A stretch of 64,000 nt of DNA, from the IMG/VR virus record IMGVR_UViG_3300021368_000006, positions 1 through 64,000 of that record. One strand, written 5' to 3'. The DNA comes from a virus. This document shows, piece by piece, positions 7,748-16,723 of this stretch. The notes beneath the pieces are model-generated. The model had not been told where the DNA came from. It saw only the letters and a list, made by a program, of their open reading frames with translations, and did no database searches. Both the position numbers and the translations under genes were made by a program. Numbering within the stretch: position 1 is the first letter of the stretch; the number at the start of each line of letters is the position of its first letter.

Positions 7748-7996
7748 ATGGCAGTTCGTACAAAAAAATACAATGAAAAAATTCATATCGATTTGGATGG
7801 CCCCCAAGGGAATGCATTTGTTCTTTTTGGTATCGCAGAAAAACTTGCCTCTATATGTGGTGTAGATTCGGAGTCTATCATACAAGATATGAAATCTGGA
7901 GATTATCTCAATCTCCTTAAAGTATTTGAAGAGAATTTTGGACACATCGTAGTTTTGGAAACTAGTAATCAGGAGTACTTAGATGTTTTTTGTTGA
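7748..7996 (+). CDS. Hypothetical protein
   Basis: 82 residues, alpha/beta composition, starting at ATG 7748 directly after the 7322 gene. It overlaps the next gene by 14 nt. No recognisable motif. Confidence 0.5.
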   Translation: MAVRTKKYNEKIHIDLDGPQGNAFVLFGIAEKLASICGVDSESIIQDMKSGDYLNLLKVFEENFGHIVVLETSNQEYLDVFC

Positions 7997-8123: not shown

Positions 8124-8182
8124 AATGTTACTTTACATTTTTGGTTTTTTCGACTAAGTATTATAGTTAAGGAGAATTATAA

Positions 8183-8389
8183 ATGTCGAAAATACAAGAA
8201 AAAATAAAAACCCTCATGGATACTGTACAAGAGAGTTTAGAGAGTCAGAGACATATTGAGTCACCAGAAGAGTTTATGATTGAACTGGATAAAGTTGGAC
8301 TTTACTTCAGTCACATGAACGATGAAGATCGTGATTACTATCAAGCGGCACAAATCGCTTTTGAAGAACAAAGGAAGTGGACTATTTAA
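8183..8389 (+). CDS. Hypothetical helical protein
   Basis: 68 residues, ATG 8183 behind AAGGAG. Mostly helical and acidic, ending 'QAAQIAFEEQRKWTI'. Followed after one base by the next gene. No family recognised. Confidence 0.5.
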   Translation: MSKIQEKIKTLMDTVQESLESQRHIESPEEFMIELDKVGLYFSHMNDEDRDYYQAAQIAFEEQRKWTI

Positions 8390-8390
8390 A

Positions 8391-8690
8391 ATGAAACTTG
8401 CAGATTTTAAAATGATTGAAAAGGACTATATGCCTGGCGGTTTCCATTCATTATTGTCTTTTGGTGAGCATCATCAACTGAGTGTTGTCAGTGGTGAAGG
8501 TGCATATGGTTCCAAGAATGCCCCTTATGAAATCGCAGTATTCATCAATGGAGAATTTGCAAATTTGCCTGGCATTGTTGAAGATGATGTTAAGGGATAC
8601 TTGACAGAAGATGAAGTTGATACGATCATAAAAAAACTTCATACCATTACAAAAGAAATTCCTGTTCAAGTCAATTTGATGGAGAGTTAA
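8391..8690 (+). CDS. Hypothetical protein
   Basis: I take ATG 8391 as start rather than an upstream frame extension, because it follows the previous stop directly and has AAGGA within the end of that gene. 99 residues with strand-rich middle (HHQLSVVSGEG, YEIAVFINGEFANLPG). No family recognised. Confidence 0.5.
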   Translation: MKLADFKMIEKDYMPGGFHSLLSFGEHHQLSVVSGEGAYGSKNAPYEIAVFINGEFANLPGIVEDDVKGYLTEDEVDTIIKKLHTITKEIPVQVNLMES

Positions 8691-8895: not shown

Positions 8896-9159
8896 ATGGA
8901 TTTGGATGAGTATGAGGAAGATATTAGATTAAATGCAGTAAGTTATAGTATTATAGCATTTAAACCTCAAACCTCAACAAAACAAGTCGGGGAAACAAAA
9001 ACTTTTGAAGATGCTATAAAAATGGCATATGAAATTCATAAAGAAAATAGTTTCCGCAGTGTATTGATTTATGCAGTTAATGAGACTGGACGATTTGTTT
9101 TAAATGCCTTCGTTAGAAGTGATGACATGAAACTCAAAATAATTGGGAGTAGAAAATGA
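8896..9159 (+). CDS. Hypothetical protein
   Basis: 87 residues, ATG 8896 immediately after the previous stop with AAAGGAAC upstream. The sequence reads as strand (YSIIAFKPQT), helix (FEDAIKMAYEIHKEN), strands, like a small alpha/beta sandwich. Overlaps the next gene by 4 nt. No family recognised. Confidence 0.5.
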   Translation: MDLDEYEEDIRLNAVSYSIIAFKPQTSTKQVGETKTFEDAIKMAYEIHKENSFRSVLIYAVNETGRFVLNAFVRSDDMKLKIIGSRK

Positions 9160-9380
9160 GTAATCAGCGAAGAGGAAACTGGAAACCAGCTGCAATGAAT
9201 GATAGTAGTAAAATAGATGCAATGTCTTTAACTACTTTCTGCAAAAATGCAAAGGTTCTTTTAGAAGAGCGTGGAGAAGAAGATGCTGCATTCTACTTTG
9301 GACAGGTAGAAGATTGGTTGCGTGATGGGGGAAGAATTCAAACTGGACACAATGATGTTGCCAGAATTCTTGGTGTGTAA
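9156..9380 (+). CDS. Hypothetical protein
   Basis: 74 residues starting with an ATGA overlap. Basic N-terminus (MSNQRRGNWKP) and a helical 'FCKNAKVLLEERGEEDAAFY' region. Overlaps the next gene by one base. No family recognised. Confidence 0.5.
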   Translation: MSNQRRGNWKPAAMNDSSKIDAMSLTTFCKNAKVLLEERGEEDAAFYFGQVEDWLRDGGRIQTGHNDVARILGV

Positions 9381-9571
9381 TGAATTTTTTAGAAAGTGAA
9401 GTTTCAGATATTCGTATTAACGATGATGAAGCAAAAATGTTTGGTATCTCTGATAGAGAACTTATTAAACATCTTTTTAAAAAGGTTGTTCTATTAGAAG
9501 AAACAGTTTATGAACTTGAGCATCAACTTAGAGTTCATGAAGAATGGATAAAGTTAAGGGAAAAAAATTAA
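9380..9571 (+). CDS. Small C-terminally coiled-coil protein
   Basis: 63 residues, start coupled to the previous stop (TAATG). The second half has heptad-like leucines (LIKHLFKKVVLLEETVYELE) and should form a coiled coil. Last gene before the tRNA region. Confidence 0.5.
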   Translation: MNFLESEVSDIRINDDEAKMFGISDRELIKHLFKKVVLLEETVYELEHQLRVHEEWIKLREKN

Positions 9572-11830: not shown

Positions 11831-11932
11831 ATGTTTAATTGGATAATAAACTTCTTTAAAATGAAAGAACATCACGGCGATCTTTCAAAACATAGATTGC
11901 ATAGCGAAAGATACGAAGACTGTTGTATGTAA
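11831..11932 (+). CDS. Small hypothetical peptide, 33 residues
   Basis: ATG 11831 to TAA 11930-11932. Hydrophobic aromatic N-terminus (MFNWIINFFKMK) followed by a His/Arg-rich part and a CC pair near the end. The stop directly abuts the ATG at 11933. The ribosome site is weak (TTAGGAATTTAAT). Confidence 0.4.
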   Translation: MFNWIINFFKMKEHHGDLSKHRLHSERYEDCCM

Positions 11933-13244: not shown

Positions 13245-13828
13245 TAGAAGGATTTAGACCACCTTGTGTGGTATTCAGAACTAGGGTTAGAGATGAATCA
13301 ATCGAAGGCCCAAACCCATTTAGATGGGAAGATGTAACAAGTGATGAATTGTTTAAAGGTAAGAGAGTAGTTTTATTCAGTTTGCCCGGCGCATTTACGC
13401 CCACTTGTTCTACATACCAATTGCCAGGCTTTGAGAGTAATTATTCAAAGATTAAAGATTATGGTATTGACGAAGTATACTGCATTTCAGTTAACGATGC
13501 ATTTGTTATGAATGCATGGGCCAAGGCACAGAACATTCAAAATGTAAAAGTGATTCCAGATGGTTCTGGAAACTTTACTCGTTTCATGGGAATGTTGATT
13601 GGTAAAAACCACTTAGGTTTTGGTATGCGTAGTTGGAGATACATGTGTGTAATTAATGATGGGGTTGTTGAACATTGGTGGCAAGAGCCAGGCATCAATA
13701 ACGATGGTAGTGATGATGACCCATATGTTCAAACAACTCCAGAAAATATGATTAGTTATCTAGATCAGAAAAGTATGTGGAATGAAGTTGAACAACGAAC
13801 CACTATGGGCGATTATAAGGTTGTTTAA
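13241..13828 (+). CDS. Peroxiredoxin (Prx5-like)
   Basis: 195 residues. The peroxidatic motif PGAFTPTC is present with Cys56, followed by the conserved 'LPGFE' helix. Later come 'YCISVNDAFVMNAWAK' and 'RSWRYMCVINDG', giving the full thioredoxin-fold order of Prx5 enzymes. These reduce hydrogen peroxide and alkyl peroxides using thiols. No clear C-terminal resolving cysteine is seen, so it may act as a 1-Cys enzyme. Start overlaps the previous stop by 4 nt and the next gene starts at its own stop. As an auxiliary gene it could limit oxidative damage during infection, possibly together with the alternative oxidase. That link is inference. Confidence 0.85.
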   Translation: MIEGFRPPCVVFRTRVRDESIEGPNPFRWEDVTSDELFKGKRVVLFSLPGAFTPTCSTYQLPGFESNYSKIKDYGIDEVYCISVNDAFVMNAWAKAQNIQNVKVIPDGSGNFTRFMGMLIGKNHLGFGMRSWRYMCVINDGVVEHWWQEPGINNDGSDDDPYVQTTPENMISYLDQKSMWNEVEQRTTMGDYKVV

Positions 13829-14625
13829 TGTATGATATAAGGCCCCTTCACAAGAATAATGCTTCTGTATTTGTTGCAGAACGCCATTATTCTGCAGTTA
13901 TGCCTCGATTAACTAAACATTATCTAGGTTTTCACTTAGATGATAAGTTGGTTGGGGTTTTAACATTAGGATGGGGAACTAATCCGATGGGAACTATTAA
14001 AAAGATGTTTCCAGATTTGACTACATCCGATTACTTTGAGATCGGAAAGATGTGCATGGATGATTCTATGCCCAGAAACTCCGAATCCCAAATGTTATCT
14101 CAAACGGTAAAGTGGATGCGTGAAAATACAGATGCAAAATATCTGTATACTTGGGCAGATGGAATAGTTGGAAAGCCAGGATATGTTTACCAATCTGCAA
14201 ACTTTCTTTACGGCGGTTTTATATGGTCTGATGTATATGTCTCTGAGACAGGCGAGAAGGTGCATTTTAGGACTATACAGAGGAAGATGAAGAAAGAGAT
14301 GGGTAGACATGATACGAAGTATGGCCCTCGACCAAATGACGCCAAAATGGGTGATATGGGGTTTTCAAGAGTATGGGGTAAACAGTTCAGATATATCTAT
14401 CCATTGACAAAAACAGATAGAAAGTATATGAATAGATATTCAACTTGTTGTTGGACAAATCAGTATCCAAAAGATGATGATTTGCAGTGGAAAATTAAAC
14501 GGCCTGGCGAAACAGAATACGAATGGTGTGATGATATGCCATTCATTCACAGTAATGACATAAAACATAATAAGAGTAATATCGCAAGATACAAGGCAGA
14601 TATTACGATTGATAGTTTTTTTTGA
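13828..14625 (+). CDS. Mom-like acyltransferase (predicted DNA modification)
   Basis: 265 residues. Residues 15-130 have the layout of the phage Mu Mom/GNAT-like group. They include an N-terminal 'AERHYS' with His20, the strand 'LVGVLTLGWG', a 'YFEIGKMCMDD' segment, 'NSESQMLSQTVKWM', and the strongly conserved 'YTWADGIVGKPGYVYQSANF'. Mu Mom modifies adenines in DNA and protects it from restriction. The C-terminal half (RTIQRKMKKEMG..., Trp/Tyr-rich) is longer than in Mu Mom. If active, it would modify phage DNA, but the family also includes uncharacterised members with unknown substrates. It is coupled directly to the peroxiredoxin gene. Confidence 0.7.
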   Translation: MYDIRPLHKNNASVFVAERHYSAVMPRLTKHYLGFHLDDKLVGVLTLGWGTNPMGTIKKMFPDLTTSDYFEIGKMCMDDSMPRNSESQMLSQTVKWMRENTDAKYLYTWADGIVGKPGYVYQSANFLYGGFIWSDVYVSETGEKVHFRTIQRKMKKEMGRHDTKYGPRPNDAKMGDMGFSRVWGKQFRYIYPLTKTDRKYMNRYSTCCWTNQYPKDDDLQWKIKRPGETEYEWCDDMPFIHSNDIKHNKSNIARYKADITIDSFF

Positions 14626-15761: not shown

Positions 15762-15955
15762 AAATAAGTTGGGGGTACTTTGTGTGTATCCCCATAGTTT
15801 CTTACTTTATCCTTTTATTCCTTTTAGGTTTATTTGGAAAAAGTTTAATGGTATTTACACCAGAAGAAAATATCGTATTGTATGAATTTCTTGGTGTTGT
15901 ATTATTACACTATATTTTTTATATTATTTTTTGCTTGACAAAAATAAAAGAATAG
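15758..15955 (+). CDS. Candidate holin (two-helix membrane protein)
   Basis: 65 residues, start overlapping the endolysin stop (ATGA). Two long hydrophobic helices (GYFVCIPIVSYFILLFLLGL and FLGVVLLHYIFYIIFCL) with a short polar turn and a basic C-terminus, the usual class II holin layout. Position next to the endolysin is the main support. The tmRNA promoter lies within its last codons. Confidence 0.6.
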   Translation: MKISWGYFVCIPIVSYFILLFLLGLFGKSLMVFTPEENIVLYEFLGVVLLHYIFYIIFCLTKIKE

Positions 15956-15963
15956 TGTATAAA
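15935..15963 (+). promoter_or_regulatory. Strong sigma-70-like promoter for the tmRNA
   Basis: TTGACA (15935-15940), 17-bp spacer, TATAAA (15958-15963). The same bases include TATAAATA (15958-15965), a late-promoter match, so the tmRNA might be expressed both early and late. Confidence 0.75.
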
Positions 15964-15965
15964 TA

Positions 15966-16355
15966 AACTTGTAATTGTTGATACGATTCAACATGCATAC
16001 TGGACTTGGGGGCAGTACCCAACGCCTCCACCATAAACACATGAGGATATAATGAATTGGGATTGGCACTGGATTAGTTGGTTTAAAGGAACACCTTTTC
16101 AATGGGGCGAATTTAGATTTAACAGTGGGAATCCTTATAAAAGTTATAGATTTGGGCCATTACTTATTCGTGTGTTTATGATGGGGGCGAACTAGGATCG
16201 ACAGGTGTGTAGAGATGAGAGTAGATTACCGTGTTGACCTACGATATTCGGTCGAACAAAACTAAACGCAAACGATAACTTTGCACCTGAATTTGCTCTA
16301 GCAGCATAATCAGCGGGGTATGGGCTCCACCTTGTTACCAAACGGGCCCGCAGTC
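15966..16355 (+). ncRNA. ssrA: Circularly permuted two-piece tmRNA
   Basis: tmRNA rescues stalled ribosomes by acting first as tRNA-Ala, then as mRNA for a degradation tag. The acceptor piece comes first, ending ACGCCTCCACCA at 16033. It includes a T-arm TTGGG-GGCAGTA-CCCAA and an upstream hairpin GTTGA/TCAAC. The coding piece starts at 16183 with GGGGGCG, which pairs with CGCCTCC over all seven positions. Position 3 is the G-U pair used for alanine charging. GTGTGT after the D-loop-like part pairs with GCATAC of the acceptor piece. The tag frame (16268-16309) reads ANDNFAPEFALAA then TAA. A GCGGG/CCCGC helix closes the 3' part. The permuted order is typical of alphaproteobacteria, and the tag differs little from that of Caulobacter. 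The intervening segment carries a 47-codon frame. Confidence 0.92.
16052..16195 (+). CDS. Small protein encoded between the two tmRNA pieces
   Basis: ATG 16052 follows GAGGATAT, a usable ribosome site, and the 47-residue frame ends at TAG 16193-16195, 13 nt into the coding piece of the tmRNA. The product is Trp/Phe-rich and basic (MNWDWHWISWFKGTPFQWGE then YRFGPLLIRVF). Processing of the precursor at 16183 would cut off its last codons and stop. It may be a real gene in the processed-out spacer or a chance frame. No family recognised. Confidence 0.4.
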   Translation: MNWDWHWISWFKGTPFQWGEFRFNSGNPYKSYRFGPLLIRVFMMGAN

Positions 16356-16375: not shown

Positions 16376-16723
16376 ATGACAAAGTTTTTAGTTGGAGCCG
16401 CTTCGGCGGTTTTTTTATGCACATCTGCAATGGCAGAAGGCATTAGAGGCCATGTAGATGGTGAAGTTGAATATAGTTTGGAAAATGAAAAATTTACATC
16501 TGAATTAGGATACACAATGGCACTTCCACAAGGATTGGTGCTGCGCCCATGGGCAGATTTTTCATATGACCGTAACTTAGCATCTGATACAATTAATTTT
16601 GACGGTGTTAATTTGGGAGTTTCATATGCAGTATCTCCTGCACTTTCTCTTTACAGTGATATTAGTGCAGATCATGACTTTGAATATGAAGATACATCAG
16701 TTGGTGTTCGCTTTACATTCTGA
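16376..16723 (+). CDS. Small outer-membrane beta-barrel-like protein
   Basis: 115 residues with a signal peptide (MTKFLVGAASAVFLCTSAMA). The mature part has about six alternating-pattern strands (GHVDGEVEYSLE, FTSELGYTMAL, VLRPWADFSYD, VNLGVSYAVS, LSLYSDISAD, TSVGVRFTF). It ends in phenylalanine, the C-terminal signature recognised by the BAM machinery. It is shorter than a standard eight-stranded barrel. It directly follows the tmRNA, with AAAAGG as ribosome site, and may be read from the same transcript. A phage outer-membrane protein could alter receptors or block superinfection; this is inference. Confidence 0.6.
   Translation: MTKFLVGAASAVFLCTSAMAEGIRGHVDGEVEYSLENEKFTSELGYTMALPQGLVLRPWADFSYDRNLASDTINFDGVNLGVSYAVSPALSLYSDISADHDFEYEDTSVGVRFTF

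Follow-up and report, generated by a model that had tools for sequence, protein, structure and literature searches.

The locus at positions 15966–16355 of the DNA analyzed here raises the question of what lies between the two halves of a phage-encoded, permuted tmRNA gene. The DNA is a stretch of 64,000 nucleotides (hereafter the window) from the IMG/VR virus record IMGVR_UViG_3300021368_000006. A preliminary description made from its letters alone had recognized a circularly permuted two-piece tmRNA but not what we regard as the most unusual part of the locus, a putative small gene in the spacer. Comparing this locus with several hundred relatives, we consider it quite probable that the spacer of phage tmRNA genes serves as a slot in which co-transcribed small genes can be exchanged.

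An alpha-type permuted tmRNA gene in a T4-like phage

The window contains an intact permuted (two-piece) tmRNA of alphaproteobacterial type with an encoded CCA, a G3–U70 pair and the tag ANDNFAPEFALAA. Rfam returned RF04321 (tmRNA_permuted) at 15971–16309 (123.2 bits, gathering threshold 47, E = 1.4e-23) and RF01849 (alpha_tmRNA), the model proposed earlier as a check, at 15916–16352 (114.6 bits, gathering threshold 50, E = 1.6e-30), while ARAGORN called a permuted tmRNA with the same tag. On the plus strand, the acceptor piece (15971–16033, 5′ limit set by the RF04321 start), representing the 3′ part of the tRNA-like domain, ends in the encoded CCA (16031–16033). It is followed by an intervening segment of 149 nt (16034–16182, plus strand), termed the spacer, and by the coding piece (16183–16352, plus strand, 3′ limit set by the RF01849 end) with the 5′ acceptor strand, the tag frame and downstream helices. 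This order, acceptor piece upstream of coding piece, together with the alanine G3–U70 pair, is that of alpha-type permuted tmRNAs. In the sequence, the acceptor strands GGGGGCG (16183–16189) and CGCCTCC form seven pairs including G3–U70. The tag frame assigned by ARAGORN (16268–16309, plus strand, GCA to TAA) terminates in small hydrophobic residues followed by a stop. For 15966–16355, RNAfold gave a z score of −2.99, and none of 100 shuffles was equally stable. Rfam, ARAGORN and the sequence thus agree with the preliminary description on the permuted two-piece gene, the CCA, the seven-pair helix and the tag frame with its stop, and its junctions near 16033 and 16183 proved exact.

Other parts of that description need revision. 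It knew of no permuted tmRNA in a T4-like phage; the accessible text of a report on Melnitz, a T4-like marine myophage, describes a two-piece tmRNA (PMC9004378), and SsrA genes are annotated in Melnitz-2 and Mosig. It also took the tmRNA type to support an alphaproteobacterial host. This argument is weak because, according to the same text, the Melnitz tmRNA is closer to alphaproteobacterial ones and the phage infects OM43, placed there in the Gammaproteobacteria (PMC9004378), so that host class cannot be read from tmRNA type. In the suggested comparison of tags, none of the ARAGORN tags in the Pelagibacterales and other loci examined (ANNKLALAA, ANDELALAA and others) equals ANDNFAPEFALAA. The closest relatives of a baseplate protein of the window were those of Melnitz and Pelagibacter phage HTVC008M (~38% identity).

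A role of the phage tmRNA in ribosome rescue or tagging, as proposed before, would be plausible. Together with SmpB, it would very likely release and tag stalled ribosomes like other alpha-type tmRNAs. SmpB was not found in the 72,790-base virus record containing the window, which is possibly a fragment, and we assume that the host supplies this partner.

Upstream of the gene, pattern matching located a promoter-like element, TTGACA–17 nt–TATAAATA, at 15935–15965 (plus strand), in which a −35 hexamer is combined with TATAAATA; it is the sole match of this pattern within the window with 0.03 expected. A generic promoter scan of the window did not list it because the scan rule calls for a second hexamer ending in T. 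We take TATAAATA to be a T4-type late motif. When 181 distinct upstream regions from relatives were compared, 121 contained it, 107 of these at 74–79 nt before the CCA end, and 97 showed the layout TTGACN + 15–19 + TAWAAW, 93 of these with a spacing of 17. The promoter of the Melnitz tmRNA is termed early in the accessible text of its report (PMC9004378). Two further features of the surroundings were recorded: a terminator-like hairpin with a T run (16391–16414) that falls in the beginning of the following ORF (16376) and would there encode residues resembling a signal peptide, and a PHROG match to a Mom-like DNA modification protein (13828–14625, E = 4e-38) with an endolysin-like gene (15306) close by.

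A reading frame nested in the spacer hairpin

The spacer contains an ORF of 47 codons (MNWDWHW...VFMMGAN; 16052–16195, plus strand), assigned to family A, which runs from an ATG at 16052 to a TAG at 16195 and is preceded at 5 nt by the Shine–Dalgarno (SD) word GAGG (16043–16046, plus strand). The spacer ends (16034–16045 and 16167–16178) pair to form a hairpin adjoining the acceptor stem, and in the RNAfold prediction they lengthen this stem and leave the ORF in the loop. The last residues and the stop of the ORF are encoded by the 3′ arm together with the conserved first nucleotides of the coding piece, the stop lying 13 nt inside that piece. Among relatives, at least eight of the first nine pairs are kept in 117 of 119 distinct arm pairs, and arm positions 8–11 swap among A–T, T–A, C–G and G–C; since one of the arms (5′ or 3′) was built into the search patterns and the offset had been fitted, these four positions are the informative ones on covariation. 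The hairpin would hold the tmRNA halves together beside the acceptor stem, and its loop would accommodate a gene for a small protein, equipped with an SD word and co-transcribed with the tmRNA. In the predicted fold of the window locus, part of the SD word and the start codon are paired, so unfolding may be needed for translation.

Pfam and PHROG scans with the window ORF gave no identification, and a tblastn search against isolate phages returned nothing useful. AlphaFold produced a four-strand model for family A (mean pLDDT 68.8, pTM 0.42), a confidence too weak for a fold search. Could the window simply harbor an ordinary phage two-piece tmRNA with an ORF arisen by chance? Such tmRNAs have been published, and the cluster containing the window's family reached only p = 0.11 by itself in a shuffle test. 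This explanation is contradicted by the conservation of family A in 48 loci, its dN/dS of 0.10 (nine distinct sequences) and its free-standing copies, and we consider it highly improbable. Family A combines purifying selection with a properly spaced ribosome-binding site, two of the properties that would define a proposed class of tmRNA spacers with a nested protein gene, the third being translation in infected cells.

Cargo families and their exchange among relatives

Relatives were collected by pattern scans of viral contigs and supplemented with Melnitz, Mosig and the window, giving 261 sources. The CCA–spacer junction gave 254 matches, of which six lay at contig ends and five were judged chance; both tmRNA pieces were present in 243, one of them (L050) an artefact. 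This row and a copy of the window (L001) were left out of counts, as were L004 and L372 in places. With the 34 window ORFs of at least 120 aa as queries, at least one further protein common to the window and the relative was detected in 145 of 241 relatives. Spacers of the 243 viral genes measured at most 50 nt in 55 cases, 51–99 nt in 45 and at least 100 nt in 143. Three scans had chosen by spacer length and one by hairpin arm; prevalence was therefore taken from the one unselected scan only. Among the matches listed there, a recognized ORF family occurred in 34 of 109 genes and 30 of 87 distinct spacers. The remaining 75 of the 109 listed genes, about two thirds, had spacers of at most 50 nt (54), 51–99 nt (19) or at least 100 nt (2).

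Long spacers of the 243 viral genes (one artefact) carry 19 unrelated small ORF families, A–S, 14 of them with at least two distinct members. Several lines of evidence make these ORFs look coding. All 12 families tested showed dN/dS values of 0.09–0.35, calculated by pooling related sequences and with two sequences each for K and L and three each for D and H. Strict SD words at spacer nucleotides 4–17 were found in 58 of 92 distinct cargo spacers versus 3 of 74 others (p = 7e-17). Spacers of at least 100 nt had longer ORFs than their dinucleotide shuffles (combined p = 5e-9 for 26 clusters, nine of which singly reached p ≤ 0.05), as opposed to spacers of 58–99 nt (p = 0.97, 14 clusters); clusters were defined crudely by shared 8-mers, with one representative each. 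Variable columns were distributed over the three codon positions as 139, 94 and 235 (p = 4e-14, an optimistic value given the pooling of related sequences). Starts were assigned in all but six of the 92 cargo spacers, which were left out of start and stop counts, and lay 18–20 nt past the CCA in 64 of the 86 ORFs. Family O, with an unassigned start in five of its seven distinct spacers, is doubtful. One cargo family corresponds to Pfam DUF6356 (43.3 bits, cut-off 24.4), and another scored 22.3 for DUF2061, just below the cut-off of 23.1. Pfam and PHROG scans of ten cargo representatives gave no match to endonuclease families and some weak matches below cut-off; cargo of families C, M, L and J had no match in isolate phages.

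The position of the stop codons bears on a further possibility, a self-limiting circuit in which cleavage at the junction of spacer and coding piece would strip the ORF of its stop, turn the excised spacer into a nonstop message and leave its product to be tagged by the tmRNA from the same transcript. The window ORF, with its stop in the coding piece, would suit such a circuit, as would the 37 of 86 start-assigned ORFs that extend past the spacer end into the coding piece. The other 49 of 86 terminate within the spacer, in many cases exactly 12 nt short of its end, so that stop removal cannot be the general purpose; as a universal principle, loss of the stop by processing is ruled out. We find the circuit unlikely. 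The same low probability applies to the extended proposal that phage two-piece tmRNA genes are cassette sites at which maturation of the window type would remove the cassette's stop and thereby link rescue and a small protein in feedback from one transcript.

An exchangeable slot agrees with pairs of loci that have nearly the same tmRNA body (62 + 175 nt compared) and different spacers. Bodies of L180 and L258 are 100% identical, with an ORF-less 106-nt spacer in one versus family J in the other; those of L021 and L048 (99.2%) accompany family D versus family H cargo; and those of L166 and L185 (98.7%) an ORF-less 74-nt spacer versus family A, the L185 spacer being an exact copy of the window's. 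Similarity in these alignments ends in the 5′ arm and returns in the 3′ arm. On a FastTree phylogeny of 169 tmRNA bodies, at least 85 changes were needed for 22 labels; as the tree has only some 237 columns, the argument for exchange leans on the near-identical pairs. Recombination through the conserved tmRNA halves would most likely be the route by which unrelated small genes are exchanged.

Cargo genes also occur outside spacers. Among the 48 family A loci, 39 have the ORF in a spacer flanked by the two pieces of the tmRNA gene and two (L460, L465) are truncated by contig ends. In three others, the ORF lies behind an acceptor half, intact in L451 and degenerate in L463 and L464, with no matching coding piece. 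The remaining four (L429, L441, L442, L450) are free-standing, and Rfam detected no tmRNA in these or in L464. In L429 and L442, the free-standing copies still carry the tail VFLRGSN, derived from the tmRNA, and are preceded by a new SD; L450 retains both hairpin arms. As a separate observation, the family A ORF of L451 (1110) is followed by a complete permuted tmRNA (1826–2047) that also matches the betaproteobacterial model. Seven loci have family M as a gene of its own, located in six of them within ~300 nt of the tmRNA. Family F stands alone in several loci including the window, where a gene for 33 aa with a DLSKHR..YED motif (11831–11932) is located just after tRNA genes. Family L and, in L214, DUF6356 were likewise found as separate genes, and a weak relative of family G (31% identity, E = 4.5e-4) immediately precedes the tmRNA in L138 and L145.

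Such copies, along with the existence of ORF-less inserts of 51–99 nt and a few above 100 nt, would also fit a spacer that is merely a permissive landing place, into which gene pieces drift without being translated and where signs of selection stem from the free-standing genes. However, comparisons among the spacer copies themselves, made for families A, C, E, F, G, L and others, gave dN/dS values of 0.09–0.35, it is chiefly the cargo spacers that contain SD words, and family A resides mostly in spacers (39 of 48 loci). We therefore hold the landing-place explanation to be improbable and retain the slot for a co-transcribed gene.

Some loci showed additional features. L112 has two complete tmRNA genes (8151–8446 and 9078–9439) at a distance of ~0.9 kb, the interval containing two tRNA genes, and L133 and L149 have two spacer candidates apiece. 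Directly upstream of the phage tmRNA in L030 is an abiF RNA (7820–7857; RF03085, 54.3 bits, gathering threshold 37), from which a 23-base pattern matched 38 stretches of viral contigs. By eye, the ORF-less 74-nt spacers of L166 and L030 share a UUCG hairpin with compensating changes, and spacers may thus carry structured RNA as well; in 16 loci with ORF-less or unassigned spacers, Rfam named nothing inside any spacer.

Bacterial genes provided a control. In the order of a Pelagibacterales genome, 176 of 197 genomes gave a match, with spans of 181–189 nt by eye among the matches listed, and spacers measured 5–12 nt in the 30 of these loci examined. Of 115 alphaproteobacterial genomes, 107 matched, 105 of them above cut-off and few with long matches, and the four longest matches contained no comparable cargo gene. 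These were L469, with a 232-nt spacer bearing two copies of an exact 28-nt repeat and a 66-codon ORF reaching into the coding piece, which indicates that ORFs this long can arise from repeats; L470 (115 nt, no ORF above 11 codons); L472 (81 nt, AT-rich); and L471 (44 nt). We reject spacer cargo as a general alphaproteobacterial trait on the basis of the Pelagibacterales and alphaproteobacterial spacers examined. A pattern for genome contigs proved loose, most of its matches looking like chance. One bacterial genome contig (L372/L389, genome G006) has a family C ORF in its tmRNA spacer and may be a phage contig binned with the bacterial genome. Among non-marine isolate phages, unannotated two-piece tmRNA genes were identified in Sinorhizobium phage Phosso (L004), Rhodobacter phage RcXuper (L474) and Mesorhizobium phage Cp1R7A-A1 (L475), whose spacers of 410, 109 and 93 nt, respectively, lack a convincing ORF.

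Meaning and comparison with known systems

From these features, we infer that either the precursor or the excised spacer, the part of the tmRNA transcript that would be discarded, serves as message for the spacer gene. As to its use, our guess is that the cargo, family A included, is an accessory protein for which the tmRNA promoter would secure strong expression. If spacer ORFs are translated, a split noncoding RNA gene would double as an expression slot for small phage proteins. This would point to overlooked phage proteins in tmRNA spacers, which escape notice where annotation labels the whole stretch as tmRNA, and the nested genes would suggest a reason why these phages keep long spacers.

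Phage two-piece tmRNAs are already known: in the accessible text of the Melnitz report, they account for 53 of 133 unique phage tmRNA structures (PMC9004378). The part for which we found no report in the open-access literature is an ORF, and hence a small gene, in the spacer of a permuted tmRNA. A review of permuted tRNA genes, as far as its accessible text goes, adds nothing further on spacers (PMC3978253). Extra sequence in the intervening segment has precedents, since a tRNA gene and a repeat have been described in permuted tmRNA spacers (PMC11915505), and L469 adds a further case with a repeat; unlike in the window, the accessible parts of that paper mention no swapped family of small-protein genes. 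They also describe a group I intron in the tmRNA T loop, with a homing endonuclease gene in 36 of 883 (PMC11915505). That system resembles the window in that a segment cut out of a tmRNA harbors a protein gene. It differs in that the insert of the window fills the gap between permuted halves and the cargo had no endonuclease match in the Pfam and PHROG scans of ten representatives. A group I intron is rejected for the window, as its insert lies between the CCA and the coding piece and the Rfam alignment shows an uninterrupted T arm. Alphaproteobacterial tmRNAs of the Caulobacter type share gene order, CCA, acceptor stem, tag frame and Rfam models with the window but not its cargo, given the 5–12-nt spacers of Pelagibacterales and the four longest alphaproteobacterial matches.

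The nearest counterparts are Methylophilales phage Melnitz and Pelagibacter phage Mosig, which share with the window the character of T4-like marine phages with an alpha-type permuted tmRNA and have the same spacer hairpin arms. Both have a different tag from that of the window, in which, unlike in the Melnitz/Mosig system, Rfam found no glutamine riboswitch above threshold. Mosig has a 44-nt spacer and no cargo. In two Melnitz records (L002, L473), locus tags 87 and 88 are absent after SsrA (86, then 89), which looks like a removal of features that overlapped the tmRNA, and the accessible text of the Melnitz paper does not mention a spacer ORF (PMC9004378). Like the window, Melnitz has TTGACA–17 nt–TATAAATA upstream of the gene and an ORF in the spacer, which belongs to family B instead of family A. 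As an isolate with a cultured host, it makes the idea of spacer-borne small genes directly testable.
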